From assembly GCA_949289455.1 (NCBI GenBank), contig CASEOA010000047.1:1-56912 (forward strand): DNA of 56,912 nt. Direction: 5' to 3'. Both the position numbers and the translations under genes were made by a program. The notes beneath the pieces are model-generated. The model did no database searches. It saw nothing but the letters and a program-made list of their open reading frames with translations, and was not told the DNA's origin. The DNA comes from an uncultured Eubacteriales bacterium (GTDB taxonomy: Bacteria; Bacillota; Clostridia; Oscillospirales; Oscillospiraceae). Of this stretch, positions 4,412 through 20,866 are shown piece by piece. Position 1 is the first letter of the stretch; every line of letters begins with the position of its first letter.

Positions 4412-4418
4412 TAAACTA

Positions 4419-4516
4419 TCATATGACTGACGGATAATGTGGAGCCTACCACATGGAGTATGATGTTTGAAAGCCGACCGTCTGGGCGAGAAAAGCCCGG
4501 ACTGTCGGCTTTTCTG
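4419..4516 (+). ncRNA. ZTP riboswitch (pfl motif) upstream of pflA
   Basis: The leader has the layout of the ZMP/ZTP-sensing pfl RNA. CATATGACTGAC opens the first domain, ATGTGG-loop-CCACAT forms the internal stem, and GGAGTATGATG closes it. A short linker leads to GCCGACCGTCTGGGC, the hallmark second domain, which here pairs with GCCCGGACTGTCGGC and runs into TTTT, so it doubles as a terminator. Ligand binding should disrupt termination and raise pflAB when folate one-carbon units are short and Z nucleotides accumulate. I identified it by recalled consensus and by context (the motif is named for pfl genes), not by a covariance search. Confidence 0.88.
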
Positions 4517-4545
4517 ATGTGATACGCAAAGGGGGACAGGGCTTC

Positions 4546-5274
4546 ATGACAAAAGGGCTGATCCATTCGGTGGAGTCCATGGGACTGGTGGACGGGCCCG
4601 GTATCCGTACTGTGTTCTTTTTGCAAGGGTGTGCCCTGCGCTGCCGCTACTGCCACAACCCGGACACCTGGGAGCGGAACAGCGGTGCGGCGGCTTGGTA
4701 TACCCCGGAGGAGGTGCTCCGCCGACTGGAGCGCTTCCGGCCCTATTACGGCTGTACCGGCGGGGTGACCTTTTCCGGCGGGGAGCCCCTGCTCCAGCCG
4801 GAGTTTCTGGGGGAGACGATGAGACTCTGCCGGCAGGCGGGCATCCACACCTGCCTGGACACGGCGGGGGTGGGCCTGGGAGACTACGGGGCCATCCTGG
4901 CCCACACCGACCTGGTGCTGCTGGATGTGAAGCACTACACCCCGGAGGGCTATCGGGCGGTGACCGGGGCGGACATGGGGGAGTACCGGCGGTTTCTGGC
5001 GGCTGTCCAGGCCGCGGAGATCCCCCTGTGGGTGCGCCATGTGGTGGTGCCCGGCCTCACCGACGGGGAGGCCCACCTGGCGGGGCTGGAGGACTACCTC
5101 AAAACCCTCCGCCATGTGCAGCGGGTGGAACTGCTGCCTTATCACACCCTGGGGGTCCACAAGTACGCCGCCCTGGGCATTCCCTACCCCCTGGAGGGGG
5201 TGGCGCCGCTGGAGCCCAAGGCCCTGGAGGACTGGAACCAAAGACTGAACCAAACCCGCTGTGAGAAAGAATGA
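4546..5274 (+). CDS. pflA: Pyruvate formate-lyase activating enzyme
   Basis: A 242-residue radical-SAM enzyme that installs the glycyl radical on PflB. The [4Fe-4S] motif CX3CX2C is at C29-C33-C36 (CALRCRYCHNPDTW), followed by the SAM-binding FSGGEPLLQPEF. The start ATG follows GGGGG at about 10 nt; an upstream in-frame GTG would run into the riboswitch terminator and was rejected. pflB begins 15 nt after its stop, so the two are co-transcribed under the ZTP riboswitch. Length and motifs are fully standard. Confidence 0.93.
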   Translation: MTKGLIHSVESMGLVDGPGIRTVFFLQGCALRCRYCHNPDTWERNSGAAAWYTPEEVLRRLERFRPYYGCTGGVTFSGGEPLLQPEFLGETMRLCRQAGIHTCLDTAGVGLGDYGAILAHTDLVLLDVKHYTPEGYRAVTGADMGEYRRFLAAVQAAEIPLWVRHVVVPGLTDGEAHLAGLEDYLKTLRHVQRVELLPYHTLGVHKYAALGIPYPLEGVAPLEPKALEDWNQRLNQTRCEKE

Positions 5275-5289
5275 GGAGGTCATAGTCAT

Positions 5290-7533
5290 ATGAGCATTGA
5301 TGTGAATTGTACCGCCTGGAAGGGCTTCCGTACGGGCGAGTGGCGCCATCTGGTGAATGTGCGCAATTTTATCCAGAAGAACTACACCCCCTATCAGGGG
5401 GATGCCTCCTTCCTGGCCCCCATCTCCCCCAAGACCGCCAGGGTGTGGGAGAAGGCCCAGGCCCTCATCATCGAGGAGGTGAAGAAAGGCATCATCGACG
5501 TGGAGACCCACGCCGTCTCCGGCATCGACAACTTTGCCCCCGGCTACATTGACAAGGACAACGAGGTCATTGTGGGCCTCCAGACCGACGCGCCGCTGAA
5601 GCGGATCGTCAACCCCTTCGGCGGCATCCGCAACGCCACCTCCGCCCTGGAGCAGTATGGCTATCAGCTGGACCCGGAGATCGAGCGCCACTTCCGCCTC
5701 TACCGCAAGACCCACAACGAAGGGGTGTTTGACGCCTATCCCAAGCGCACCCGGCTGGCCCGGACGGCGGGGCTGCTCACCGGCCTGCCCGACGCCTACG
5801 GCCGGGGCCGCATCGTGGGGGACTACCGCCGGGTGCCCCTGTACGGCACCGACTTTCTCATTGAGGAGAAGGAAAAGGATCTGGACATGATCGACGGCCC
5901 CATGACCGATGAGCGCATCCGCCTGCGGGAGGAGGTCCAGATGCAGATCCGGGCCCTGGAGCAGATGGCCGCCATGGCCAAGCGGTATGGCTGCGACATC
6001 ACCCGTCCGGCGGAGAACGCCCATGAGGCGGTGCAGAACCTGTACATGGCCTACCTGGCGGGCATCAAGGAGAACAACGGAGCCGCCACCTCCCTGGGCC
6101 GCACCGCCACCTTCCTGGACATTTACATCCAGCGGGACCTGGAAAATGGCGTGCTGGACGAGGCGGGGGCCCAGGAGCTCATCGACCAGTTCGTCATCAA
6201 GCTTCGGCTGGTGCGCCACCTGCGCACCCCGGAGTACAATGAGCTCTTCGGCGGCGACCCCACCTGGGTCACCGAGTCCATCGGCGGCATGGGGGTGGAT
6301 GGCCGCACCCTGGTCACCAAGAGCTCCTTCCGCTACCTTCACACCCTCACCAATCTGGGCACCGCCCCTGAGCCCAACCTGACGGTGCTTTGGAGCCCCC
6401 ACATGCCCCAGGGCTTCAAGGACTACTGCGCCAAAATGAGCATCGACACCGACTCCATCCAGTATGAGAGCGATGAGCTCATGCGGCCCATGTACGGGGA
6501 CGACTACTGCATTGCCTGCTGTGTCTCCGCCATGGCGGTGGGCAAGCAGATGCAGTTCTTCGGCGCCCGGGCCAACCTGGCCAAGAGCCTGCTGTACGCC
6601 ATCAACGGCGGTGTGGACGAGAAGAAGGGCATCAAGGTGGTGCCTGAGATTGAGCTGGACACCGACGAAGTGCTGGACTACCCCAAGGTGCTGGGCAACT
6701 ATAAAAAGGTGCTCTCCTACGTGGCAGAGCTCTATGTGGACACCATCAACATCATCCACTTCATGCACGACAAATACGCCTACGAGAGCAGCCAGATGGC
6801 CCTCCACGACACCCTGGTGGAGCGGCTGGCCGCCTTCGGCGTGGCGGGGCTGTCCATCGCCGCCGATTCCCTGTCCGCCATCAAGTTTGCCAAGGTGCGC
6901 CCCGTCCGCAACGAGCAGGGCATCGCCGTGGACTTTGAGGTGGAGGGAGACTTCCCCAAATACGGCAACGACGACGACCTGGTGGACGACATTGCGGTGG
7001 AGCTGGTGTCCTACTTCTCCGCCGAGCTGAAAAAGCACCCCCTGTACCGCAATGCCATCCACACCCTGTCCGCCCTCACCATCACGTCCAATGTGATGTA
7101 CGGTAAAAAGACCGGGGCCACCCCCGACGGCCGGAAGGCGGGGGAGCCCTTTGCCCCCGGCGCCAACCCCATGCACGGCCGGGACAAGAGCGGAGCCCTG
7201 GCTTCCCTCAACTCGGTGGCCAAGCTGCCCTACCGGGCGGTGTGTCAGGACGGGGTGTCCAACACCTTCTCCATCGTGCCCTCCGCCCTGGGCAAGACCG
7301 AGGCCCAGCAGGTGGACAATCTGGTGCACATCCTGGACGGCTATTTTCTCCAGGGTGCCCACCACCTGAATGTGAACGTGATGAACCGCCAGCTGCTGCT
7401 GGACGCCATGGAGCACCCCGAGCAGTACCCCACCCTTACCATCCGGGTGTCCGGCTATGCCGTCAACTTCTCCCGCCTCAGCCGGGAGCAGCAGCTGGAG
7501 GTAATCAAGCGCACCTTCCACGAGAGCATGTGA
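5290..7533 (+). CDS. pflB: Formate C-acetyltransferase (pyruvate formate-lyase)
   Basis: A 747-residue glycyl-radical enzyme converting pyruvate and CoA to acetyl-CoA and formate anaerobically. The catalytic cysteine pair is C410-C411 (CIACCVSAM) and the radical glycine is G722 in RVSGYAVNF near the C-terminus, both where the family has them. GAGGAGGT precedes the ATG. With pflA it provides formate, which can be loaded onto tetrahydrofolate for purine synthesis; this fits its ZTP riboswitch and purF being next downstream. Motifs match PFL proper rather than glycerol/choline-type glycyl radical lyases. Confidence 0.95.
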
Positions 7534-9185: not shown

Positions 9186-11756
9186 TCAGCAGCTGGCGCC
9201 GCCGATCACGGTCTTGTTCATGACAGCCTGCTTGTCCACGGTACCGTGGAGCAGCTTGTCCTCCACATAGTCGAAGCCCAGGCGCTGGATGGTGTCGGAG
9301 AACCGCTCGCCGGTCTGGCCTTCATCCCGGAAGAAGAGGATGGCTTTCTCCACCAGGTCGATGACCTCCTGCTCGCTGGTGAAGAACTTGGACAGCGGTC
9401 TGCCGGAGGCCACCCTCTTGCCCCAGCGGCCGCCGATGTACACCTTGTAGCCATAGGTGCTCTCGGTAAAGGCGCCGAAGGGGCACTTCTCCATGCAGCG
9501 TCCGCAGTGGTTGCAGAGGTTGGGGTCAATGATGGCCTTGCCGTCCTTCAGGGTGACGGCGTGGATGGGACAGGCCTTCTCGATCTGGCACACCTTGCAG
9601 CCTCTGCATTTGTTCAGGTCTGGCTCGGGCAGCCGCTGGCCGATGATGCCCAGGTCGTTCAGGTCGGGCTTGACGCAGTTGTTGGGGCAGCCGCCCACGG
9701 CCAGCTTGAACTTGTGGGGGAGGGACACGTCGTGATAGCCCTTGTAGAACAGCTCGTGGAGCTTCTCGCTGAGGGCAAAGGTGTCGATCAGGCCGTACTG
9801 GCAGGTGGTACCCTTGCAGGATACCACAGGCCGCACCTTGGAGCCGGTGCCGCCGGCTTCCAGCCCGGCGTTGTTCAAAAACTCGATCAGGGGCTCCACA
9901 TTCTGGTAGGGCACGCCCTGGATCTCCAGGGTAAGCCGGGTGGTCATGGTGACCTCGCCGGAGCCAAACTTCTCAGCGGCTTCAGCCACAGCAGTGTGCT
10001 CAGCGGTGGTCAGCTTACCGTTGCGGGTGATAACACGCACGTTGAAGCAGTCTGGAGTGCGCTTGTCCCACAGGCAGCCCATACCCTTCAGCCGCTTGAC
10101 CTCCTCGGGAGGCACGGCAGCACCGGCGGGGCGGGGTACTTTGACCTGGTTGAAGGTGACGCCGCCCTCCAGAACACGGGTGTTGGTGTAGCCGAAGAAC
10201 TTCAGCCGGTTCTGGAGGAAGTAGCCCCGTTTGCCCCGGGCGCACACCAGCAGCAGCTTGGCGTCCTTGTCGATGCCCTCCAGAGGGCCGTTGACCTGGG
10301 CCAGGTTGACCCACTTGGCCCCGGGGATGGCGGGGGCGGGCTGGGCGTCAATGACCTGGTAGTCTTTTGCTTCCCCGGCGCTGTACTGGGCGGGGGTGAA
10401 GGTCTCCAGCTTGCCGGAGAGCTTGTTCTCCAGCACATGGCAGGCCTGAACAAAGGGGTGGATGGCGGTGGAGAAGGGGGGCGCATAGGCCAGATCCATG
10501 GTGTCATAGGCGTCGATGGTCAGCCCGGCGTACAGGCCCACCGCGGCCACGTCTACCATCTTGTCCACGGCCCCGGCGCCGATGACCTGGAGGCCCAGCA
10601 GCTTGCGGGTGTTTTTATCGGCCACCAGCTTGGTGAGGAAGAGGGAGGCACCGGGATAGTAGTGGGCCTTGTCGTCGGAGACGCACACCACGGTTGCGGG
10701 ATCAAAGCCCTCAGCCTTGGCCTGGGCCTCGGTGAGGCCGGTGCGGCCCACGTTGAGCTGGGGGAGCAGCTTGGCCACGCCGGTACCCAGGCAGCCGCCG
10801 TAGGGGGTGGGAGAACCGGTGAGGGTGTAGGCCAGGGCACGGGCGGTCAGGTTGGCGGTGGAGCCCATAGCGGACCACTGGCCCTTGCCGGTGATAGCGG
10901 AGCGTACCATGGCGCAGTCGCCGGCGGCATAGATGTGGGGCAGGTTGGTGCGCATCAGCTCGTCCACCACCACAGTGCCCTTGAAGAGCTCGATGCCGGT
11001 GTCTGCCAGGAAATCAGTGGCGGGGCGGACGCCGATGGCCAGCACCACCACGTCAGCGGCGATGGAACCCCCGTCGGTGACGATACCGGTAGCCTTGTCG
11101 GTGCCGGTGACCGACTGGATGCGCTGGCCGGTGAGCACCCGCACTCCGGCCTCCTTCAGCTTCCGGCGGGCAAAGTCGGCCATCTCAGGATCAAAGGCGT
11201 TGGGCATGATCTGGTCGGCAAAGTCCACCACCGTCACGTCCAGACCCTGGCCCAGCAGGTTCTCGGCAATCTCCAGGCCGATAAAGCCGGCGCCGGCTAC
11301 CACAGCCTTGCGGCAGCCATTGGCGGAGACATAGTCCCGCAGGCCCACCGCGTCGTCGGGGGTGCGCATGGGGAACACGCCGGGCAGTGCCTTGCCGGGC
11401 ATGTCGGGCACAAAGGGCGCCGCGCCGGTAGCGATGATGAGTTCATCGTAGCTTTCGGTGAAGCTCTCCCCATGGAGCAGGCCGCTGACTGTTTTGGCGG
11501 CAGGGTCCACATGGGTGACTTCGCAGCCGGTGACCACCTCGGCGCCGGTGAGACCGGCGTACTTCTGAGGCGTGTTGACGATGAGCTCCTCCCGAGTGCC
11601 GATGGAGCCGCCTACATAGTAGGGCAGGCCGCAGCCGGCATAAGAGATATCCTCACCCTTGTTAAGTACCTTGACCTGGGCGCTGCGGTCCTCCCGTTTC
11701 AGCTTGGCGGCCGCTTTCGTCCCGGCGGCCACGCCGCCGATGACCAGAATGCGCAT
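9186..11756 (-). CDS. Fusion: CoA-disulfide-reductase-like flavoprotein, rhodanese, siroheme sulfite/nitrite reductase, 2x[4Fe-4S]
   Basis: An 856-residue cytosolic multidomain protein. Residues 1-445 are an FAD/NAD(P)H oxidoreductase with GGVAAG and GAGFIG nucleotide loops and C42 in YAGCGLPYYVGG, the position of the CoA-disulfide/NADH-oxidase redox cysteine. Residues about 465-545 are rhodanese-like with C505 in the loop CARGKRG. Residues about 570-710 resemble the nitrite/sulfite reductase siroheme domain, with C647/C652 and C690/C694 as cluster ligands; the first pair is CX4C where CX5C is usual. Residues 715-765 hold two ferredoxin motifs (C717-C720-C723-C729; C748-C751-C754-C758). The domains suggest reduction of persulfide, polysulfide or sulfite to sulfide with NAD(P)H; NirB-like nitrite reduction is the alternative. 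The start follows GGGGGAAC. LysR is divergent. Confidence 0.85.
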   Translation of the reverse strand: MRILVIGGVAAGTKAAAKLKREDRSAQVKVLNKGEDISYAGCGLPYYVGGSIGTREELIVNTPQKYAGLTGAEVVTGCEVTHVDPAAKTVSGLLHGESFTESYDELIIATGAAPFVPDMPGKALPGVFPMRTPDDAVGLRDYVSANGCRKAVVAGAGFIGLEIAENLLGQGLDVTVVDFADQIMPNAFDPEMADFARRKLKEAGVRVLTGQRIQSVTGTDKATGIVTDGGSIAADVVVLAIGVRPATDFLADTGIELFKGTVVVDELMRTNLPHIYAAGDCAMVRSAITGKGQWSAMGSTANLTARALAYTLTGSPTPYGGCLGTGVAKLLPQLNVGRTGLTEAQAKAEGFDPATVVCVSDDKAHYYPGASLFLTKLVADKNTRKLLGLQVIGAGAVDKMVDVAAVGLYAGLTIDAYDTMDLAYAPPFSTAIHPFVQACHVLENKLSGKLETFTPAQYSAGEAKDYQVIDAQPAPAIPGAKWVNLAQVNGPLEGIDKDAKLLLVCARGKRGYFLQNRLKFFGYTNTRVLEGGVTFNQVKVPRPAGAAVPPEEVKRLKGMGCLWDKRTPDCFNVRVITRNGKLTTAEHTAVAEAAEKFGSGEVTMTTRLTLEIQGVPYQNVEPLIEFLNNAGLEAGGTGSKVRPVVSCKGTTCQYGLIDTFALSEKLHELFYKGYHDVSLPHKFKLAVGGCPNNCVKPDLNDLGIIGQRLPEPDLNKCRGCKVCQIEKACPIHAVTLKDGKAIIDPNLCNHCGRCMEKCPFGAFTESTYGYKVYIGGRWGKRVASGRPLSKFFTSEQEVIDLVEKAILFFRDEGQTGERFSDTIQRLGFDYVEDKLLHGTVDKQAVMNKTVIGGASC

Positions 11757-11796
11757 AACAGTTCCCCCTTCAATAATTACATTTTTTGGACCACAC

Positions 11797-11825
11797 TTGA
11801 AACTAGTATAACACTCCACTATAAT
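11797..11825 (+). promoter_or_regulatory. Sigma-A promoter of lysR
   Basis: TTGAAA, 17 bp, TATAAT. It overlaps face to face with a minus-strand TATACT (11805-11810) that probably is the -10 of the fusion reductase gene. Confidence 0.75.
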
Positions 11826-11846: not shown

Positions 11847-11883
11847 ATGAGCTGATTTGATTTTTTAATGGGTGGTGAACGTC

Positions 11884-12765
11884 ATGGTAGACTACCGCAT
11901 CCGCACCTTTCTGACCCTGTACGAGACCATGAACTACCGCCGGACGGGGGAGCTGCTCTGTCTGAGCCAGCCTGCGGTCAGCCAGCAGATCCGGGGGCTG
12001 GAGGAAAAGTACGGCTGCAAGCTGTTTGTATATGATGGGCGGAGGCTCCAGGTTACCCCCCAGGCCAAGCGGGTGGCGGAGTACGCCCGCACCGCCCTGT
12101 ACAACGAGCAGCGGCTCCAGCAGGAGCTGGCGGACCCTGCTGCCCGGGAGGTGCGGATGGGGGCCACCAAGACAATCGGAGAGTTTGTGGTGGCCGAGGC
12201 GCTCAGCCGGTATATCCGCCGGACGGGAGACAGCCTGAAAATCGTGGTGGACAACACCAGAGCCTTGCTCAGCCTGCTGGACCATGAGCAGTTGGATTTT
12301 GCCCTGGTGGAGGGGGCCTTTGACCGGCAGCGGTATGGCAGCCGCCTGTTCCGCCAGGCCAAATTTGTGGGCCTGTGCCGAAGGGATCACCCCTTTGCCG
12401 GGCGCACCGTCTCCCTGGAGGACCTGGCGGGCCAGTGCCTGTTGGTGCGGGAGCCGGGGTCGGGTACCCGGGGTATTCTGGAAAACGCCCTGGCTGAGCG
12501 GGGGTACTCCTTTGACCTGTTTTCCCGGGTAATCTGTGCCAATCAGTTTTCCCTCATTACCCGGTTCGTAGCGGCGGGGACAGGGATCACCTTTGCCTAT
12601 GAGCCGGTGGGGGAGGGGCAGCCGGAGCTGGCCCCCTTCCACCTGGACTGTCTGGACGAACACCGGGAGTTCAGCCTGGTCTACCTGAAGGGGACTCAGA
12701 TCTTTTCCCTGGCCCGGGAGGTATTGGGCGAGGATTCTCCCGTCGGATTGGAGCGGGAGGATTAA
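11884..12765 (+). CDS. LysR-family regulator, divergent from the fusion reductase
   Basis: A 293-residue protein. Residues 1-60 are the winged HTH (RRTGELLCLSQPAVSQQIRGLEEKYG), and residues about 85-280 are the periplasmic-binding-like effector domain. Start at ATG, 6 nt after GGTGGTG; GTG codons just upstream overlap that site. LysR proteins typically regulate the divergent gene and themselves, so this one probably controls the fusion reductase in response to a sulfur metabolite, as CysB/CysL relatives do. The effector is unknown. No terminator is evident before the lar leader promoter, which lies within 40 bp of its stop. Confidence 0.85.
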   Translation: MVDYRIRTFLTLYETMNYRRTGELLCLSQPAVSQQIRGLEEKYGCKLFVYDGRRLQVTPQAKRVAEYARTALYNEQRLQQELADPAAREVRMGATKTIGEFVVAEALSRYIRRTGDSLKIVVDNTRALLSLLDHEQLDFALVEGAFDRQRYGSRLFRQAKFVGLCRRDHPFAGRTVSLEDLAGQCLLVREPGSGTRGILENALAERGYSFDLFSRVICANQFSLITRFVAAGTGITFAYEPVGEGQPELAPFHLDCLDEHREFSLVYLKGTQIFSLAREVLGEDSPVGLERED

Positions 12766-12771
12766 AAAAGC

Positions 12772-12800
12772 TTGCCAAAGAGAAGCCGGTATGGTATACT
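12772..12800 (+). promoter_or_regulatory. Sigma-A promoter of the lar leader and operon
   Basis: TTGCCA, 17 bp, TATACT. Confidence 0.78.
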
Positions 12801-12806
12801 AATTCA

Positions 12807-12960
12807 AACATCGGAAGCAGCAATCCCAGATCCGGCAAGAAGCCGGACGGCGCGGCTAGAGCCGCATGGAGCGCATCCCAACAGCCGGTGTTTACCCAGT
12901 CGATGAAGATACTAGGAAGGTATCTGTCCCCCCCAAGGGGGACGGATGCCTTCTTTTTTT
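12807..12960 (+). ncRNA. Structured leader (candidate riboswitch) ahead of larE, ending in a terminator
   Basis: From the predicted start the RNA can fold into a closing helix CATCG/CGATG (12809-12813 with 12901-12905). This encloses a hairpin TCCGGC-aagaa-GCCGGA (12831-12847) and a hairpin GCGGC-taga-GCCGC (12852-12865). A second GCCGG (12884-12888) could capture the same CCGGC. After the closing helix, GATAC (12908-12912) can pair with GTATC (12920-12924), which would break the 5' arm of the following terminator. This is the architecture of a transcriptional riboswitch. I compared it from memory with cobalamin, NiCo, Moco, TPP, SAM and T-box signatures and found no match. Nickel or a cofactor-related ligand is inference from the operon. 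Confidence 0.65.
12916..12960 (+). terminator. Attenuator terminator upstream of larE
   Basis: A 17-bp stem with two G-U pairs (GAAGGTATCTGTCCCCC against GGGGGACGGATGCCTTC), a 4-nt loop and seven T. It is only 16 nt ahead of the larE start, so it must be bypassed to express the operon. Confidence 0.88.
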
Positions 12961-12976: not shown

Positions 12977-13720
12977 ATGACACTGGAGCAGTTTTTTCAG
13001 CAGACCCCACGGGCGGCGGTGGCCTTTTCCGGCGGCACCGACTCTGCCCTGGTGCTGTGGGCGGCCAAGACCTGGGGTTGCCAGGTGCAGGCGTATTATG
13101 TCAACACCGCTTTCCAGCCCGCCTTTGAGCTGGCCGACGCCCAAAGACTGGCGGCGGAGCTGGATGTGCCCATGACGGTGGTGCAGGTGGACGTGCTGGC
13201 GGTGCCCGAGGCGGCGGCCAACGGCCCAAGGCGGTGCTACTACTGCAAGCGGGCTCTGTTCACCGCCCTGTGGCAGGCGGCCAAAGCCGACGGCCACACC
13301 GTACTGCTGGACGGCACCAACGCCTCGGACGACGCCGGGGACCGACCGGGGATGCAGGCCCTCCGGGAGCTGGAGGTCCGATCCCCCCTGCGGGAGTGCG
13401 GCGTCACCAAGGCCGAGGTGCGGCGGCTGTCCCGGGAGGCGGGACTATTCACTTGGGACAAGCCGGCCTACGCCTGTCTGGCCACCCGGGTGCCCACCGG
13501 CACCGCCATCACGGCGGAGGCCCTGGTCAAGGTGGAGCGGGGGGAGGACATCCTGTTCCGGCTGGGATTCACCGACTTCCGGCTGCGGCTGCTGGGAGAC
13601 GCCGCCCGTATACAGGTGCCGGCGGATCAGATGGAGCGGGCCGCCGCCCTTCACAGCGAGATCACCCAGGCCCTGGGGGCGGATTTTTCCGCCGTTCTGC
13701 TGGACCTGGCGGGGAGGTAA
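12977..13720 (+). CDS. larE: ATP-dependent sacrificial sulfur transferase LarE
   Basis: A 247-residue PP-loop enzyme that activates pyridinium-biscarboxylate mononucleotide with ATP and adds sulfur to it on the way to the nickel-pincer nucleotide cofactor. The SGGTDS loop is at residues 18-23. C167 in KPAYACLATRVPTG is in the position of the sacrificial cysteine of known LarE. A further RCYYCK pair (C87, C90) is present. The start follows AAGGAG at 7 nt; the in-frame upstream extension runs through the terminator and was rejected. It is the first gene of larE-larB-larC-transporter, with larB 4 nt away. Confidence 0.9.
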   Translation: MTLEQFFQQTPRAAVAFSGGTDSALVLWAAKTWGCQVQAYYVNTAFQPAFELADAQRLAAELDVPMTVVQVDVLAVPEAAANGPRRCYYCKRALFTALWQAAKADGHTVLLDGTNASDDAGDRPGMQALRELEVRSPLRECGVTKAEVRRLSREAGLFTWDKPAYACLATRVPTGTAITAEALVKVERGEDILFRLGFTDFRLRLLGDAARIQVPADQMERAAALHSEITQALGADFSAVLLDLAGR

Positions 13721-13724
13721 GGAA

Positions 13725-14483
13725 ATGGACAACAAGCATGAAATCCTGGAGCTGCTGCGGGCGGTGGAGCAGGGGAGGACCACCCCGGAGGACGCCTTGC
13801 TGGAGCTGAAGCAGAAGCCCTTCGAGGACCTGGGCTATGCCAAGGTGGACTTCCATCGCAGTGTGCGCCAGGGGGCGGCGGAGGTGATCTACGGCGCGGG
13901 CAAGACGCCGGAGCAGATCGCCGGTATTGCCGCCGCCATGGGAGAGCGGGGGTGCAAAAACATCCTCATCACCCGCATGGGGCAGGAGGCCGCCGACCTG
14001 GTGGCCCAGTCGGTGCCTCTGGAGTACCATCCGACCCCCAAGCTGGGCATCGCCTTCTCCGGGGAGCGGACGGCGCTGGGACACATTGTGGTGGCTACAG
14101 GCGGCACCAGCGATATGCCGGTGGCGGAGGAGGCAGCCCTTACCGCCGAGATGATGGGCAACAGGGTCACCCGGCTGTACGACGTGGGAGTGGCGGGTCT
14201 CCACCGGCTGCTGAGCAACCTGGAACCCCTGATGAGCGCCCGGTGCGTGGTGGCTGTGGCGGGCATGGAGGGTGCCCTGGCCTCGGTGGTGGGCGGCCTG
14301 GTGGACTGCCCGGTGGTGGCGGTGCCCACCAGCGTGGGCTACGGAGCCAACTTCGGCGGCCTGTCCGCCCTGTTGGCCATGCTCAACTCCTGCGCCTCCG
14401 GGTGCAGCGTGGTGAATATCGACAACGGATTTGGAGCCGGCTATCTGGCCAGCATGATCAATCAGATGGAGGGATTGCAGTGA
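13725..14483 (+). CDS. larB: Nickel-pincer cofactor biosynthesis protein LarB
   Basis: A 252-residue protein with a helical N-terminus and a PurE/AIR-carboxylase-like C-terminal domain (GGTSDMPVAEEA; CVVAVAGMEGALASVVGGL; PTSVGYGANFGG). LarB carboxylates and hydrolyses nicotinic acid adenine dinucleotide to pyridinium-biscarboxylate mononucleotide, the first step of the pathway. GGGGAGGTAAGGAA precedes its ATG, and its stop overlaps the larC start (GTGA), so translation is probably coupled. The larE context separates it from true PurE. Confidence 0.92.
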   Translation: MDNKHEILELLRAVEQGRTTPEDALLELKQKPFEDLGYAKVDFHRSVRQGAAEVIYGAGKTPEQIAGIAAAMGERGCKNILITRMGQEAADLVAQSVPLEYHPTPKLGIAFSGERTALGHIVVATGGTSDMPVAEEAALTAEMMGNRVTRLYDVGVAGLHRLLSNLEPLMSARCVVAVAGMEGALASVVGGLVDCPVVAVPTSVGYGANFGGLSALLAMLNSCASGCSVVNIDNGFGAGYLASMINQMEGLQ

Positions 14484-15841
14484 AAACGCTGTACATTGAG
14501 TGTAATATGGGGGCAGCGGGGGACATGCTCATGTCCGCCCTGTACGAGCTGCTGGGAGAGAAGGAAAAGGAAACCTTCCTCCAGACCATGAACAGCCTGG
14601 GTCTGCCCGGGGTCGAGGTGGCGGCCGATACCGCCGTCACCAGCGGCATCACCGGTACCCATATGAAGGTCACCGTCCACGGGGAGGAGGAGGACGAGCA
14701 CCTTCACCACCACGACCATGAGCACCCCCACGAGCATGGGTGTTGCCACGACCATAAGCACCCCCACGAGCATGGACACTGCCACGACCATGAGCACCCC
14801 CACGAGCATGGGCACTGCCACCACCTCGAGCATCCCCATGAGCATGGGCACTGCCATGACCATGAGCACCCCCACGACCATGAACATCATCACCACCACC
14901 ATGCCAGCCCCGACCACATTGCCCATCTCATCGACCACCTGCCCCTGCCGGAGGAGGTCAAGGCCCAGGCCAAGGGGGTGTACGATGCCATCGCCCAGGC
15001 GGAGGCCAAGGCCCACGGTTGCCCGGTGGGGGAGGTCCACTACCATGAAGTGGGGGCTCTGGACGCGGTGGCCGACGTGGCCGGTGTGTGCTACGCCCTC
15101 TACCTGCTCCGGCCCGACCGCATTGTGGCCTCTCCCGTCCATGTGGGCAGCGGCACCGTGCGGTGTGCCCACGGAATTATGCCGGTGCCCGCCCCCGCCA
15201 CCGCCGCCCTGCTGGCCGGGGTGCCCACCTACGGCGGGCAGATCCGGGGGGAGCTGTGCACCCCCACCGGGGCGGCTCTGCTGGCCCACTTCGCTCAGTC
15301 CTTCGGCTCCATGCCTCCTCTGACGGTAGAAAAGGTGGGCTACGGCGTGGGCACCCGCCAGTTTGAGCAGGCCAACTGCGTCCGGGCATTCTGGGGAGAG
15401 AGCCAGCAGGGGAGCAACGGGGAGATCGTGGAGCTGGTGTGCAACATCGACGACATGACCCCCGAGGCCCTGGCCTTCGCCTCCCAGCGTCTGCTGGAGG
15501 AAGGGGCCCTGGACGTGTACACCGTCACCGGCACCATGAAGAAGGGCCGCCCCGGCCATGTGCTCACCGTACTGTGCGACGCCGGGAAGGAAGACGGTCT
15601 GGCCCGGGCCATCCTCCGCCACACCACCACCATCGGCCTGCGGGTCCGCCGGTGCGAGAAGTATTTCCTCACCCCCGGCAGCCGGTCCGTGTCCACCCCC
15701 TGGGGGGAGGTGGCGGTCAAGACGGCGGAGGGCTTTGGCGTGTGCAAGGCCAAGCCGGAGCACGCCTCGGTGGCCGCCGTGGCCCAAGCCGCCCAAGTGC
15801 CCTATCAGGAGGTCTACCAGGCCGCCCTGAAGGGCCTGTAA
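14480..15841 (+). CDS. larC: Nickel insertase LarC with a histidine-rich insertion
   Basis: A 453-residue CTP-dependent nickel insertase that completes the nickel-pincer nucleotide. It starts at a GTG overlapping the larB stop. The N-terminus (LYIECNMGAAGDMLMSAL) and the C-terminal half (CNIDDMTPEALAFASQRL) are LarC-like. In Lactiplantibacillus plantarum the two halves join by a programmed frameshift; here they are one continuous frame. Residues about 74-141 form a His-dominated tract with Cys, Glu and Asp encoded by 36-bp tandem repeats, likely to bind or store nickel. The transporter gene follows 9 nt after the stop. Confidence 0.92.
   Translation: MKTLYIECNMGAAGDMLMSALYELLGEKEKETFLQTMNSLGLPGVEVAADTAVTSGITGTHMKVTVHGEEEDEHLHHHDHEHPHEHGCCHDHKHPHEHGHCHDHEHPHEHGHCHHLEHPHEHGHCHDHEHPHDHEHHHHHHASPDHIAHLIDHLPLPEEVKAQAKGVYDAIAQAEAKAHGCPVGEVHYHEVGALDAVADVAGVCYALYLLRPDRIVASPVHVGSGTVRCAHGIMPVPAPATAALLAGVPTYGGQIRGELCTPTGAALLAHFAQSFGSMPPLTVEKVGYGVGTRQFEQANCVRAFWGESQQGSNGEIVELVCNIDDMTPEALAFASQRLLEEGALDVYTVTGTMKKGRPGHVLTVLCDAGKEDGLARAILRHTTTIGLRVRRCEKYFLTPGSRSVSTPWGEVAVKTAEGFGVCKAKPEHASVAAVAQAAQVPYQEVYQAALKGL
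14711..14890 (+). repeat. Five 36-bp tandem repeats encoding HDHEHPHEHGHC-type units
   Basis: Five in-frame 36-bp units lie end to end at 14711, 14747, 14783, 14819 and 14855. Each encodes a 12-residue unit like HDHEHPHEHGHC; the fourth and fifth have drifted, and a run of His codons follows. The tract is coding and has no spacers, so it is not CRISPR. Copy number probably varies between strains. Confidence 0.9.
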
Positions 15842-15850
15842 GGAGGCCCT

Positions 15851-17410
15851 ATGAAACGTATTCTGCCTTTGCTGCTGGCCTTTGCCCTTCTGGCCGGCTG
15901 CGGCGGCGGGACCCCCGCCGCCACGCCATCCGCCGCTCAAAAGACCGACAGTGTGGTCATCGCCATGGGTCCCACCTCGGAGCCCGAGGCGGGCTTTGAC
16001 CCGGCCTACGGCTGGGGGGCCGGGGAGCACGTCCACGAGCCCCTGATCCAGTCCACCCTGACGGTGACCAACACCGACCTGACCATCGGTTACGACCTGG
16101 CCACCGACGTGCAGGTCAGCGACGACGGCCTCACCTGGACGGTCACTATCCGGGACGATGTGAAATTCACCGACGGGGAACCCCTTACCGCCGCCGACGT
16201 GGCCTTTACCTATAATACCGTCAAGGCTGCCAGCTCGGTGAACGACTTCACCATGCTGGACAGCGCCGAGGCGGTGGACAGCACCACCGTAGTATTCCAT
16301 ATGGCCACCCCTAACTCCATCTGGCCCTACACCATGGCCATCGTGGGCATCGTGCCCGAGCACGCCTATGACCCGGCCACCTACGGTTCCAACCCCATCG
16401 GCTCCGGCCGGTACATCCTCAAGCAGTGGGACAAGGGCCAGCAGGTGATTTTGGAGGCCAACCCGGACTACTACGGGGAGGCCCCCCAGATGAAACAGGT
16501 GACCATCCTCTTTATGGAGGAGGACGCCGCCTTCCTGGCGGTGCAGGCCGGCCAGGTGGATCTGGCCTACACCTCCGCAACCTACTCCGACCAGAGCCCC
16601 GCCGGGTACAGCCTGGCCTCTTACGAGAGCGTGGACAACCGGGGCTTCAACCTGCCGGTGATCGAGGGTGCCCTCACCGGGGACGTGCTGGTCCGCCGGG
16701 CCATCAACGTCGGCATCGACCGGCAGGAGATGATCGACAACGTGCTCAATGGCTATGGCACCCCCGCCTACAGCGTGTGCGACGGTCTGCCCTGGTACAG
16801 CCCGGACTCCGAGGTGGCCTACGACCCCGAGGGGGCCGCTGCCCTGCTGGACCAGGCGGGCTGGACCATGGGGACCGACGGCGTCCGGGAAAAGGATGGC
16901 GTAAAAGCCGCACTGGAGCTGCTCTATCCCACCGGCGACTCGGTGCGTCAGGCCCTGTGCGCCGACTTTGCCAACCAGCTGGGGGAGCTGGGCATATCCT
17001 GCACCATGGAGGGGGTGGGCTGGGACACCGCCTATGACCGGGCCCTCACCCAGCCTCTGATCTGGGGCTGGGGGGCTCACACTCCCATGGAGCTGTACAA
17101 CATCTACCACACCATCGGGGAGACCGGCACCGCCCAGTATTCCCCCTATGCCAATTCCACTGTGGACTCCTATATGGACCAGGCCCTGGCCTGCTCCGAT
17201 TTGGAGGAGTCCTACACCCTGTGGCAGAAGGCCCAGTGGGACGGCACCACCGGCGTCACCCAGGAGGGGGACATCCCCTGGGTGTGGCTGGTGAACGTGA
17301 GCCACCTGTACTGGGTGCGGGACGGCCTCCAGGTGGCGGAGCAGAAGATTCACCCCCACGGCCACGGCTGGTCCGTTGTCAACAACGTGGACCAGTGGAG
17401 CTGGGGATAA
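15851..17410 (+). CDS. ABC transporter substrate-binding lipoprotein, NikA/OppA family (probable nickel)
   Basis: A 519-residue SBP_bac_5 protein. The signal peptide ends in the lipobox LLAGC (C17), so it is anchored outside the membrane. Family blocks are clear (DDVKFTDGEPLTAADVAFTYN; IGSGRYILKQWDKGQQV). The C-terminus is rich in His (IHPHGHGWSVVNN), which suits metal-chelate binding. AAGGAGG precedes the ATG, 9 nt after larC. Placement directly behind lar genes makes nickel, probably as a complex, the best guess; di- or oligopeptides remain the family alternative. Confidence 0.8.
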   Translation: MKRILPLLLAFALLAGCGGGTPAATPSAAQKTDSVVIAMGPTSEPEAGFDPAYGWGAGEHVHEPLIQSTLTVTNTDLTIGYDLATDVQVSDDGLTWTVTIRDDVKFTDGEPLTAADVAFTYNTVKAASSVNDFTMLDSAEAVDSTTVVFHMATPNSIWPYTMAIVGIVPEHAYDPATYGSNPIGSGRYILKQWDKGQQVILEANPDYYGEAPQMKQVTILFMEEDAAFLAVQAGQVDLAYTSATYSDQSPAGYSLASYESVDNRGFNLPVIEGALTGDVLVRRAINVGIDRQEMIDNVLNGYGTPAYSVCDGLPWYSPDSEVAYDPEGAAALLDQAGWTMGTDGVREKDGVKAALELLYPTGDSVRQALCADFANQLGELGISCTMEGVGWDTAYDRALTQPLIWGWGAHTPMELYNIYHTIGETGTAQYSPYANSTVDSYMDQALACSDLEESYTLWQKAQWDGTTGVTQEGDIPWVWLVNVSHLYWVRDGLQVAEQKIHPHGHGWSVVNNVDQWSWG

Positions 17411-17450: not shown

Positions 17451-17476
17451 GTAGGGGCGACCCTTGTGGTCGCCCG
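17451..17476 (+). repeat. REP-like palindromic element, copy 2
   Basis: GTAGGGGCGACC-CTTGT-GGTCGCCCG; same head and tail as copies 1 and 3. The pair separates the binding-protein gene from the permease genes and may modulate their expression ratio. Confidence 0.7.
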
Positions 17477-17514
17477 TGCCTTGGCATGGAACCTATCGGA
17501 AAGAAGGGATCCTT

Positions 17515-18507
17515 TTGAAGCACCGCCTGACGTTTACCGGGAAAAAGCTCATCCGGATGCTCCTCCTCCTGCTGGGGGTGAGCCTGGCCGCCTTCCTGCT
17601 CATGTCGGCCTCCCCTCTGGACCCGCTCCAGACCAACGTGGGTCAGGCCGCTCTGGGTACCATGAGCCAGGAGCAGATCGCCAAGCTGGAGGACTACTGG
17701 GGAGTCAACGACCCGCCGGCCCAGCGGTATCTGGGCTGGCTGGGGGACTTTGTCCGGGGAGACATGGGTACCTCTCTGCTCTACCGCCAGCCGGTGAGCC
17801 AGGTCATTGGTCAGCGGCTGCAAAACTCCCTGTGGCTCATGGTCTTTGCCTGGGTGATCTCGGGGGTGCTGGGCCTTACCCTGGGAGTCATTGCCGGGGC
17901 CAACCGGGGCGGGCTGGCAGATAAGCTCATCCGGGGCTATTGCCTGCTCATTTCCAGCACTCCCGCCTTCTGGCTGGCCTTGCTGCTGCTGATGATCTTC
18001 GGCGTGTGGCTGGGCTGGCTGCCCATCGGCCTGTCGGTGCCCATCGGGGTGGACGCCGCCAGCGTCACCCTGGCCGACCGGCTGTACCACGCCATCCTTC
18101 CCGCCCTCACCCTGAGCATCACCGGAGTGGCCAACATTGCCCTCCACACCCGGGAGAAGATGGCCGACATCATGGAGCAGGACTACATCCTCCTGGCCCG
18201 GGCCAGGGGGGAGTCCCACCGCTCCATCGTCCTCCGCCACGGCCTGCGCAATGTGGCCCTCCCTGCCATCACCCTGCAATTCGCCTCCATCAGCGAGATT
18301 TTTGGGGGCTCGGTTCTGGTGGAGCAGGTGTTTTCCTACCCCGGCCTGGGACAAGCTGCCGTCAACGCCGGCCTGGGGGGCGACCTGCCTCTGCTGCTGG
18401 GCATCACGGTGGTGAGCGCCGCCCTGGTATTCGGGGGCAATCTGATTGCCGACCTGCTGTACGGTGTGGTCGATCCCAAAATCCGGAGAGGGGTGGCCAA
18501 GCTGTGA
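17515..18507 (+). CDS. ABC transporter permease, NikB/DppB family
   Basis: A 330-residue inner-membrane permease with about six helices. The EAA-type loop for ATPase contact is visible (DYILLARARGESHRSIVLRHGLRN). I placed the start at a TTG, 8-10 nt after AAGAAGGG, because earlier in-frame codons fall in the REP-like repeats; the exact start is uncertain by up to 17 codons. Its stop overlaps the next permease gene (GTGA). With its partner it forms the channel of the presumed nickel importer. Confidence 0.8.
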   Translation: MKHRLTFTGKKLIRMLLLLLGVSLAAFLLMSASPLDPLQTNVGQAALGTMSQEQIAKLEDYWGVNDPPAQRYLGWLGDFVRGDMGTSLLYRQPVSQVIGQRLQNSLWLMVFAWVISGVLGLTLGVIAGANRGGLADKLIRGYCLLISSTPAFWLALLLLMIFGVWLGWLPIGLSVPIGVDAASVTLADRLYHAILPALTLSITGVANIALHTREKMADIMEQDYILLARARGESHRSIVLRHGLRNVALPAITLQFASISEIFGGSVLVEQVFSYPGLGQAAVNAGLGGDLPLLLGITVVSAALVFGGNLIADLLYGVVDPKIRRGVAKL

Positions 18508-19325
18508 GACATTGGAATGGACGGCGGGCTGCCCTGGCGCTGCTGCTGCTGGCGCTGCTGGTGCTGTGCGCCGTGACGGCGGCGGGCTGCCTGCTGGGGG
18601 AGCAGGCCATGGTCACCGACTTCTCCCGCAAAAATCTCTCCCCCTGCGGTGCCTTCCTCTTCGGCACCGACTGGATGGGCCGGGACATGCTGGCCCGCAC
18701 CCTCACCGGCCTGTCCCTGAGCATTCGCATCGGCCTGCTGACAGCGGGGGTGAGCGCCGTTCTGGCCCTGGTTCTGGGGCTGGCCTCCGCCCTGGGAGGC
18801 TGGGTGGACAGCGTGGTGTCCTGGTGCATCGACCTGGTCATGGGCATCCCCCACATTCTGCTGGTGATGCTCATCTCCCTGGCCTTTGGCAAGGGCTTTG
18901 TAGGGGTGGTGGCCGGGGTGGCCCTCAGCCACTGGCCCTCCCTGGCCCGGGTCATCCGGGGGGAGGTCCTCCAGCTCAAGGGGGCCACCTATGTGAGGAC
19001 GGCGGAAAAGCTGGGGGTGTCCCGGCTCCAGATTGCCCGGCGGCATTTCCTGCCCCATTTGCTGCCTCAGTTCCTCACCGGGCTGGTGCTCCAGTTCCCC
19101 CATGCCATCCTCCACGAGGCCAGCGTCACCTTCCTGGGCTTCGGCCTCTCTTCGGAGCAGCCCGCCATCGGGGTGATCCTGTCGGAGAGCATGAACTATC
19201 TCACCACCGGCAAGTGGTGGCTGGCGGTGTTCCCCGGGCTGAGCCTGGTTCTGGTGGTGGTGCTCTTCGCCGCCATGGGAGAACAGCTGCGCAAGCTCCT
19301 GGACCCGGCAAGCGTACATCGGTAA
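18504..19325 (+). CDS. ABC transporter permease, NikC/DppC family
   Basis: A 273-residue permease. The N-terminal helix is followed by the family block FLFGTDWMGRDMLARTLTGLSLS and the EAA loop (GATYVRTAEKLGVSRLQIARRHFLPH). Start at GTG overlapping the preceding stop by four bases, which implies translational coupling. It pairs with the NikB-like subunit. The substrate is inferred only from the operon. Confidence 0.82.
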   Translation: MRHWNGRRAALALLLLALLVLCAVTAAGCLLGEQAMVTDFSRKNLSPCGAFLFGTDWMGRDMLARTLTGLSLSIRIGLLTAGVSAVLALVLGLASALGGWVDSVVSWCIDLVMGIPHILLVMLISLAFGKGFVGVVAGVALSHWPSLARVIRGEVLQLKGATYVRTAEKLGVSRLQIARRHFLPHLLPQFLTGLVLQFPHAILHEASVTFLGFGLSSEQPAIGVILSESMNYLTTGKWWLAVFPGLSLVLVVVLFAAMGEQLRKLLDPASVHR

Positions 19326-19337
19326 GGAGGTGCGGAT

Positions 19338-20267
19338 ATGGAACCGATTTTGGACGTAAAGGATCTGTCTATTTCCTTCACCCAGTACAGCCGGGGTACC
19401 CGGCAGGTGCTGCTCCATGTGATCCGGGAGCTGTTCCTCACCATCCAGCCGGGGCAGATTGTTGCGGTGGTGGGCTCCAGCGGCTCGGGCAAGAGCCTGC
19501 TGGCCCACGGCATCCTGGGCATCCTGCCCTATAACAGCCACATGGCGGGGGAGATCACCTTCCTGGGCCAGCCCCTCACCCAGCAGCGGGCGGAGCAGGT
19601 CCGGGGGCGGGAGATGGTGCTGGTGCCCCAGGGGGTGACCTACCTGGACCCCCTGATGCAGGTGGGCCCCCAGCTGCGCAAGGGCAAAAAGGACCCCCAA
19701 ACAAAAGCCCGGTTCCGGCAGGTGCTGAACCGCTATGGCCTGGGGGAGGAAGTGGAAACCCTTTACCCCTTTGAGCTGTCCGGGGGCATGGCCCGGCGGG
19801 TGCTCATCGCCACCGCCGCCGAGGCCGCCCCCAGGCTGGTCATCGCCGACGAGCCCACCCCCGGCCTGGACGCCCGGGCGGCCAGCCGGGTGCTGGGCCA
19901 CTTCCGGGAGCTGGCGGAGGGGGGCGCCGGGGTGCTCCTCATCACCCACGACCTGGAGCTGGCCCTCACCATCGCCCACCGGGTGACGGTGTTCTATGCC
20001 GGGGTCACCATCGAGGAGGCGGACGCCGCCGACTTTGCCGCCGGAAAGCTCCGTCACCCCTACACCAGGGCCCTGTGGAACGCCCTGCCCCAGAACGGAT
20101 TTGTGCCCATCCCCGGGGCCCAGCTCGGGCCGGGGGAGGGAGGCCAGGGCTGCCCCTTTGCCCCCCGGTGTACCCAAGCCCGTCCGGAGTGCCTGGGGCC
20201 GGTGCCCTACCGGTCCCTGGACGGGGGCAGGGTGCGCTGCCTGTATCCGGAAGGAGGGAACCTATGA
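19338..20267 (+). CDS. ABC transporter ATP-binding protein, NikD/OppD family
   Basis: A 309-residue ATPase. Walker A GSSGSGKS, signature LSGGMARRV, Walker B RLVIADEPTPGLD and the switch ITHDLELALT are present. The C-terminal extension carries the Cys-rich oligopeptide-ABC motif CPFAPRCTQARPEC, typical of OppD/NikD-type subunits. AAGGAGG precedes the start. Its stop overlaps the next ATPase gene by four bases. Confidence 0.85.
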   Translation: MEPILDVKDLSISFTQYSRGTRQVLLHVIRELFLTIQPGQIVAVVGSSGSGKSLLAHGILGILPYNSHMAGEITFLGQPLTQQRAEQVRGREMVLVPQGVTYLDPLMQVGPQLRKGKKDPQTKARFRQVLNRYGLGEEVETLYPFELSGGMARRVLIATAAEAAPRLVIADEPTPGLDARAASRVLGHFRELAEGGAGVLLITHDLELALTIAHRVTVFYAGVTIEEADAADFAAGKLRHPYTRALWNALPQNGFVPIPGAQLGPGEGGQGCPFAPRCTQARPECLGPVPYRSLDGGRVRCLYPEGGNL

Positions 20268-20866
20268 GCCTGGAAGGAATGGGCCTGACCTTCGGTTACC
20301 GGGGGAAGGGCAAAAAAGGGGTGCTGGACCATGTGGACCTGTGCCTGGAGCCCGGGGAGCGGCTGGGCCTGTCCGGCCCCAGCGGCCGGGGCAAGACAAC
20401 TTTATGTAAACTGCTTTCCGGCTACGAAAGACCGGACAAGGGCCGGGTGCTGGTGGACGGCAAACCCCTGGGGGAGTACAAGGGCCTGTGCCCGGTGCAG
20501 ATGATCTGGCAGCATCCCGAGACGGCGGTGGACCCCCTGATGAAGCTGGGGGACACCCTGAGGGAGGGCGGGCCGGTGGAGGAGGGGCTGCTGGAGGCTC
20601 TCCACATCCAGCCGGCCTGGCTGGACCGGTATCCCACCGAGCTGTCCGGCGGAGAGCTCCAGCGGTTCTGCATCGCCCGGGCCCTGCGGCCGGGGGTGAA
20701 ATACCTGCTGTGCGACGAGATCACCGCCATGCTGGACCTCATCACCCAGGCCCAGATGTGGTCTTTCCTGCTGGAGCAGGCGGAGCGGCGGCAGTTGGGC
20801 CTGCTCATCGTCAGCCACAACTCCGCCCTGCTGGAGCGGCTGTGTACCCGCATCCAGCCCCTGTAA
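20264..20866 (+). CDS. ABC transporter ATP-binding protein, NikE/OppF family (short)
   Basis: A 200-residue ATPase with Walker A GPSGRGKTT, signature ELSGGELQRFCIARAL, Walker B YLLCDEITAMLD and switch IVSHN. It ends right after the nucleotide-binding domain and lacks the Cys-rich C-terminal extension of its partner, as is usual for NikE-like short forms. Note Thr-Ala (ITAML) where many ATPases have PTSAL. It starts at ATGA overlapping the upstream stop, with GGAAGGAGG ahead. Last gene of the lar-transporter operon; no clear terminator follows before the next promoter. Confidence 0.83.
   Translation: MSLEGMGLTFGYRGKGKKGVLDHVDLCLEPGERLGLSGPSGRGKTTLCKLLSGYERPDKGRVLVDGKPLGEYKGLCPVQMIWQHPETAVDPLMKLGDTLREGGPVEEGLLEALHIQPAWLDRYPTELSGGELQRFCIARALRPGVKYLLCDEITAMLDLITQAQMWSFLLEQAERRQLGLLIVSHNSALLERLCTRIQPL

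Follow-up and report, generated by a model that had tools for sequence, protein, structure and literature searches.

An undescribed RNA leader with repeated GA-rich hairpin loops precedes lar operons and ECF transporter S components in Clostridia

Introduction

A 56,912 nt contig from an uncultured Eubacteriales bacterium (CASEOA010000047.1 in GenBank assembly GCA_949289455.1; the whole contig is here called the window) carries a lar operon, which makes the nickel-pincer nucleotide, behind an apparent attenuator. A sequence-only reading had described this leader as riboswitch-like and of no class that it could name. What the leader is, which genes it accompanies elsewhere and what signal it might follow are the questions addressed here. 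Among the matches listed in the open-licence literature, no regulatory RNA was described for nickel-pincer cofactor supply, nor was any cofactor importer. The words "transporter" and "uptake" do not occur in the available portions of PMC11770544, PMC11796402 and PMC7583248, nor does "riboswitch" in those of PMC11770544 and PMC11796402.

An attenuator ahead of larE

The leader sits between a LysR gene (11872–12765, same strand) and larE (12977–13720), and the attenuator in it is real. A sigma-70-type promoter, TTGCCA-17-TATACT with an extended −10 TG, is found at 12772–12800 (+ strand) as a consensus match only; 10 of the 12 consensus letters match, and one such site was found where shuffled sequences yield a mean of 0.1. 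Two hairpins follow on the same strand, H1 (CCGGC[AAGAA]GCCGG, 12832–12846) and H2 (GCGGC[UAGA]GCCGC, 12852–12865), both supported by the fold, by a covariance model match (R3, below) and by a joint alignment. The antiterminator hairpin GAUACU[AGGAA]GGUAUC (12908–12924, +), which has the same type of loop as H1 and H2, is supported by the model match, its computed energy and the joint alignment. Finally, the fold and a terminator scan place an intrinsic terminator at 12914–12960 (+), with 19 pairs (stem 12914–12955) and then a T run, that ends 16 nt 5′ of the larE start. The promoter, the two internal hairpins, the competing GATAC/GTATC helix and the strong terminator had all been proposed in the sequence-only reading, and each is present.

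The 3′ arm of the antiterminator is part of the 5′ arm of the terminator, with 12914–12924 common to both, so the two hairpins cannot coexist. Their computed energies are −3.9 and −34.7 kcal/mol, respectively, and the terminator should therefore form unaided. The whole fold (12803–12960) reaches −69.9 kcal/mol against −47.2 ± 4.1 kcal/mol for shuffled sequences (z −5.56; 0/200 shuffles as low), with the terminator alone accounting for about half of this energy. As the terminator scan returns 0.6 terminator-like sites per shuffle, the presence of a terminator is in itself unremarkable.

H1 and H2 are enclosed by a 9 bp helix, P1, formed by AAACAUCGG (12806–12814, +) and CCGGUGUUU (12885–12893, +) in the fold and in an alignment of five congeneric species that includes the window's. 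Its six alignable pairs form in 29/29 cells and two of them show double changes, though 117/500 shuffles did as well, five sequences being too few for this control to tell. The closing helix that had been suggested instead, CATCG (12809–12813) with CGATG (12901–12905), exists as letters but is absent from the minimum-energy fold and pairs in only 13/24 cells in the same five congeners, and we reject it. The CCGG that had been taken for an alternative partner belongs to the better supported P1.

Directly behind the leader, larE (TIGR00268, 248.8 bits), larB (13725–14483; NF033503), both over the curated cut-offs, and larC (14480–15841, start GTG; PF01969, E = 3.9e-132) are firmly identified by their profile matches. 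They are followed on the + strand by genes for an ABC importer. Its solute-binding protein (15851–17410) is NikA-like and of the SBP_bac_5 type, and its permeases and ATPases occupy 17464–20866; the products of 17464–18507 and 19338–20267 were scanned, and the second permease (to 19325) and second ATPase (to 20866) were named by reading only. The claim of a nickel importer holds insofar as this is an SBP_bac_5-type ABC system for which nickel or oligopeptide is the best name, but none of its matches reaches the curated cut-offs for nik or opp. Since the binding protein is NikA-like yet scores 152.9 bits with TIGR02294 against a cut-off of 393, nickel is a likely substrate but not a certified one. 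Strong Lar_N (LarA) matches lie away from the lar operon, on contigs 72 and 44 of the window genome.

Three further observations concern the window. The LarC translation contains a long His-rich insert with repeats of the HEHPHEHG type, possibly a nickel store. The LysR gene is divergent from a large ORF (9186–11819) that reads as a CoA-disulfide reductase or NADH oxidase fusion and is the more likely target of the LysR protein. A ZMP/ZTP riboswitch (pfl RNA, 58.5 bits) at 4413–4494 (+) directly precedes ORFs 4519–5274 and 5290–7533, which read as pyruvate formate-lyase activating enzyme and pyruvate formate-lyase.

A family of leaders

A covariance scan of the window leader with Rfam 15 returned nothing at the gathering score, in agreement with the failure of the sequence-only reading to place it in a class. 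At E values up to 10 the best match was ctRNA_p42d (E 0.023; 21.1 bits against the 50 needed), which lies on the terminator, and none was credible. The same scan of 20 related loci found one tRNA and nothing else. Judged from these scans and the model searches that follow, the leader is a member of a so far undescribed RNA family, one absent from the Rfam library searched.

The family is marked by several hairpins that carry a C[ANGAA]G or C[NGAA]G loop, the final one overlapping the terminator. In canonical members a first hairpin, a second and often a third are followed by a last one whose 3′ arm also serves as the terminator 5′ arm and whose loop is C[AGAA]G or similar. Such leaders were found before lar operons, one Fec-type importer, one Nik-type importer and ECF transporter S components. 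Three covariance models were built: R1 from eight lar leaders, kept as an independent test on S-component leaders; R2 from 19 sequences, including an S-component leader (L111); and R3 from six S-component leaders only, with a short calibration that makes its E values rough.

Within the taxonomic family, larE is present in 126/250 genomes. A leader was read in 17 of the 30 best larE loci (L002–L031) and was not seen in the other 13. The models back most of the 17, with three (L016, L019 and L025) being R1 seeds that are weak in R3. In 60 further larE loci, chosen by place and searched with R1 (nine also with R3), there were two weak R1 matches (L091, E 0.012; L075, E 0.034). Three loci of genus g66 (L011, L013 and L014) have a terminator-like hairpin upstream of larE and no visible GA-loop hairpins, and another control may therefore exist there.

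When R1 was used to search 400 genomes of the family at E ≤ 0.05, 23 had matches. Eight were the seeds themselves and ten were other larE loci, named by reading; the remainder were L111, which lies before an ECF S component gene (PF12822; E = 1e-4), and four weak ones (E 0.009–0.042). Three of the four (L112, L114 and L115) look like chance, and the fourth (L113, E 0.016), upstream of an apparent FecB-type binding-protein gene, is too weak to count. R1 gave no match in the window at E ≤ 1.

R2 matched the window at 12826–12959 (23.9 bits). At E ≤ 0.01 it matched 28/394 genomes of the order (30 matches) and 14/391 of the class (14 matches), of which 14/30 and 5/14 matches were read (leaving out L144–L147, L153–L161 and ten further rows). 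Eleven of the 19 loci read fit by their downstream gene. Two precede larE (L133 and L134), three precede lar operons that start with two small proteins (L131, L132 and L148), one precedes an importer of FecCD type (L130; grouped by clustering with a PF01032 protein), one a NikA-like binding protein (L149), and four precede S components (L135, L138, L143 and the weaker L141). The small proteins have the forms MAC..VPAAEA.. and MTLLTTVFAA.ICTVIWY.., and the pair in L132 has no Pfam match. The remaining eight (L136, L137, L139, L140, L142 and L150–L152) have nothing fitting downstream and are probably chance.

Lar-derived and S-component-derived models recognise each other's leaders. On 54 S-component loci, R1 gave six matches at E ≤ 0.01 (L162, the leader also numbered L111, 6.3e-6; L135, L197, L165, L141 and L211, 0.002–0.005) and three at 0.01–0.03 (L163, L138 and L143), all at the leader position, while R2 matched 5/30 and 5/20 S-component loci at E ≤ 0.01. 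In the other direction, R3 matched the window, searched alone, at 12820–12960 (+) with 40.2 bits and E = 1.4e-10, a rough value given the short calibration. Across 58 sources, its 27 matches at E < 0.002 were 25 lar leaders, the window's included, the L130 leader and an opposite-strand shadow of L131. R3 at 0.01 misses the known lar leaders L016, L019, L025, L106, L109, L110 and L134. On 22 larE loci read as leaderless (the 13 above and L032–L040) it gave nothing below 0.02, the lowest values being 0.022 (L020) and 0.034 (L014). R3 also matched the window at 16488–16628 on the minus strand (E = 0.0053), but this site falls within the gene for the binding protein and is probably a chance match. 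Because R1 and R3 cross-match, we conclude that lar leaders, the window's included, form a single RNA family with the S-component leaders.

Covariation and conserved loops

The homologous leaders also covary, as the sequence-only reading had asked of them. In an alignment of eight lar leaders made with MAFFT only (A3), 88.1% of cells are paired and 12/21 pairs show double changes (shuffle control, 2/500; slid controls, 29–46%). The joint alignment of lar and S-component leaders (A12), which was fitted to R3, kept 52 matches (51 distinct) from 55 sources chosen from earlier matches. In it, 93.4% of cells are paired, against 34–49% in slid controls, and 18/20 pairs show double changes. Eighteen doubly changed pairs were reached by 10/500 shuffles; 0/500 attained the share of paired cells, the count of cells with double changes or the covariation score. 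The simplest account of the leader, an ordinary attenuator or chance fold with no common regulator, could appeal to the frequency of terminators in shuffled sequence and to spacers that vary in length, but the cross-matching of independent models, the position of the matches and the covariation leave it scarcely credible.

Conserved letters are found mainly in the loops of H1 (A-N-G-A-A), H2 (N-G-A-A) and the antiterminator (A-N-G-A-A), all of which are closed by C-G. The others are a spacer U (0.88) and A (0.87) before the antiterminator and the terminator's own letters. The ANGAA loop is present in 41/51 sequences in H1 and 35/51 in the antiterminator, and the H2 loop ends in GAA in 35/51, H2 being weak or missing in some members. 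By alignment columns, the H1–H2 spacer is 1–4 nt and that between H2 and the antiterminator 4–53 nt (median 31), with the latter spacer and some loops misplaced in several rows (loops of at least 11 bases).

Repeated hairpins of this kind recall the targets of ANTAR proteins, which, according to the available part of PMC3369931, act on paired hairpins by stabilising the antiterminator. The leader could be a variant ANTAR target, read by the ANTAR protein encoded beside glutamine synthetase. The consensus AGCAANGRRGCUY at the terminator base, as given in that part of PMC3369931, resembles C[ANGAA]G less one base, and an ANTAR protein was found in 13/15 genomes tested (G000 and 12/14 others). 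However, the portions available of PMC3369931 and PMC8164766 describe a hexaloop with A1 and G4, which occurs in 0/51 sequences in H1, 0/51 in H2 and 1/51 in the antiterminator, and we therefore reject membership of the ANTAR-target class itself. The linkers given there are 5–12 nt (eut) or 2–25 nt (an actinobacterial set), against 1–4 nt between H1 and H2 and a median of 31 nt between H2 and the antiterminator here, either of which might be the spacer to compare. Two leader-bearing genomes of one genus (G668 and G738) have no ANTAR match, and the only one in the window genome (G000 contig 79; L092) follows a glutamine synthetase-like ORF. Taken together, a variant ANTAR target appears distinctly unlikely. 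LoaP-dependent antitermination was also considered and rejected, with a LoaP gene over the NF033641 cut-off in 0/13 genomes.

The S component and larE exclude each other

The S component carries the motif SPMHIPVLLCG and passes curated cut-offs only for broad ECF families (PF12822; the protein in L205 also PF07155 and PF07694). Named loci are the best 80 of 564. Among these best 80 there were 26 R3 matches on the + strand at E ≤ 0.01, 24 of which end 9–136 nt upstream of where the S-component match starts; in 56/80 no R3 match was found just upstream. One of the other two matches precedes genes that read as ECF ATPases, T component and S component (L223), and the second lies elsewhere (L275). 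L212 and the R3 seed L165 have identical scores and may stem from one species.

At E ≤ 1e-10, the S component is found in 91/250 genomes and tends to occur where larE does not: 10 genomes have both, 116 larE only, 81 the S component only and 43 neither (p = 1.4e-22). Genomes listed as at least 90% complete give about 9 with both, 59 with the S component only, 72 with larE only and 20 with neither (p = 7e-17). Exclusion is weaker for the 32 closest S components (6 both, 26 S component only, 120 larE only and 98 neither; p = 1.1e-4). In 19 mixed genera, 28 genomes have larE only, 28 the S component only and 2 both (genomes with neither left uncounted). As the exclusion is also seen inside genera, it is not just the result of old ancestry.

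The neighbours of the S component bear on what it carries. A nucleoside-kinase-like gene is near it in 28 of the best 80 of 564 loci, and the accompanying protein (L206:1310–2380, L116:447–1628) is in two parts with a uridine-kinase-like C-terminal domain. The simplest reading is that the S component would replace synthesis by uptake of the cofactor, which would probably enter as a nucleoside and be phosphorylated afterwards. A DUF3842 gene is near the S component in 25 of the same 80 loci, and DUF3842-like proteins are also encoded in two lar loci (L122:10110–10631 and L131:1058–1471), the assignment having been scanned (PF12953) for L195:3933–4403 only. No paper naming DUF3842 was found in the open-licence literature, and we consider it a candidate for cofactor handling or regulation. 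In L268, L275 and L288 the gene after the S component reads as a SAM-dependent methyltransferase, and the S-component family may thus hold more than one branch.

Direct sensing of Ni2+ or Co2+ by the leader, in the manner of NiCo riboswitches, would suit the importers of Nik and Fec type that the leader precedes. The window leader and 20 related loci, however, have no match to the NiCo family, and a nucleoside-kinase-like neighbour fits a nucleoside better than a metal. Furthermore, LarC is missing from four of five genomes in which the leader precedes an S component (G078, G668, G738 and G495, but not G589), so both NaAD and Ni2+ fit poorly as ligands. We regard metal sensing as very unlikely.

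The distribution of LarA was also compared. It is present in 51/126 larE genomes, 29/81 with the S component only and 8/43 with neither (either against neither, p = 0.014); at E ≤ 1e-10 it is absent from 75/126 and 52/81 of the first two groups, and G668, which has the leader and an S component, has no LarA at E ≤ 0.001. The link between LarA and the S component by presence is weak (p = 0.06 within larE-negative genomes), and one LarA query on the 80 named S-component loci (best 80 of 564) found nothing. LarA adjoins the S component in G012, and the single-contig genomes G206 and G128 have LarA and the S component, with no larE at the threshold used. The available part of PMC11796402 reports larB, larE and larC without larA in about 15% of genomes, which fits the LarA-free genomes seen here.

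Given that the RNA is common to lar and S-component genes, which exclude each other, it probably controls the supply of the nickel-pincer nucleotide, whether made or imported. The role in the pincer-cofactor pathway that the sequence-only reading had considered is better supported than before, as the leader also precedes an importer component that appears to replace larE.

Discussion

The same loop recurs in every hairpin, which suggests that one binding module holds the antiterminator. With so little conserved elsewhere, the leader looks more like the site of a protein antiterminator than a small-molecule aptamer, as far as conservation in the alignment can tell. Our best explanation, which we hold tentatively and at slightly less than an even chance, is that a trans-acting factor acts on the GA-rich loops, stabilises the antiterminator and so controls genes for pincer-cofactor supply. 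By default the more stable terminator would win, and larEBC and the ABC importer would be off. The factor would recognise the loops common to H1, H2 and the antiterminator hairpin and keep the latter closed, blocking the terminator and allowing read-through when the cofactor is needed. It would most likely be a protein, acting on its hairpin targets as ANTAR proteins do. Several results speak against this explanation: no regulator gene was found among the clustered ORFs of at least 90 aa in selected loci, LarA is often absent, LarC was found in one of five genomes with a leader before the S component, the leader was not seen in 13 of the 30 best larE loci or by R3 just upstream in 56 of the best 80 of 564 S-component loci, R1 matches few S-component loci and not the window, the exclusion is weaker for the closest S components, and H2 is not well formed in every member.

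Alternatively, the leader may itself bind the nickel-pincer nucleotide or its nucleoside and so decide between antiterminator and terminator. A covarying, conserved fold before genes of one pathway is what a riboswitch would present, as are the conserved U and A of the spacer and, in the window's genus, a P1 that encloses H1 and H2. The regulon, with biosynthesis (lar), importers and an ECF importer, also resembles those of cofactor riboswitches, and no linked regulator gene was found among the clustered ORFs of at least 90 aa in selected loci. On the other hand, one loop motif recurs in all of the hairpins, an aptamer would be expected to have a larger conserved unpaired core, and the spacer varies in length. 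Direct binding is therefore possible but doubtful. The fuller proposal, a new riboswitch class for the nickel-pincer nucleotide or nucleoside that controls both lar synthesis and a salvage route, with uptake by an unrecognised ECF transporter and a nucleoside kinase, we consider rather unlikely.

The common leader RNA unites genes for cofactor synthesis with an ECF importer in a single regulon. Since larE and the S component exclude each other, many Clostridia may well obtain the nickel-pincer cofactor by scavenging from their neighbours. Should this be so, both the sharing of the cofactor and the ligand of the switch would be open to direct tests.

Among known systems, cobalamin riboswitches have a comparable regulon, in which one RNA governs the synthesis of a cofactor, the import of metal and an ECF transporter that brings in the cofactor ready-made. 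The leader described here likewise precedes synthesis genes, probable metal importers and an ECF S component but, unlike cobalamin riboswitches, has no Rfam match. The NiCo (czcD) riboswitch shares with it a possible link to nickel; it is in Rfam, and its fold differs from that of the leader. Lambda-type boxB hairpins, which have a GNRA-like loop, are bound by N peptides and are used in antitermination. The leader loop is also GNRA-like, with a variable base, but the leader differs in overlapping the terminator and in its repeated hairpins, and an N-like peptide is not known here. From the ANTAR-target RNAs (EutV/NasR/AmiR), as the available parts of the two papers describe them, the leader differs in its loops of 4–5 nt (NGAA, ANGAA), in having two or three hairpins before the antiterminator, in its longer spacer, in its regulon and in the two leader genomes without an ANTAR match. 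On the same descriptions, it resembles them in its small repeated hairpins, in a loop that starts with A, holds a G and is closed by C-G, and in a last hairpin that shares sequence with the terminator 5′ arm.
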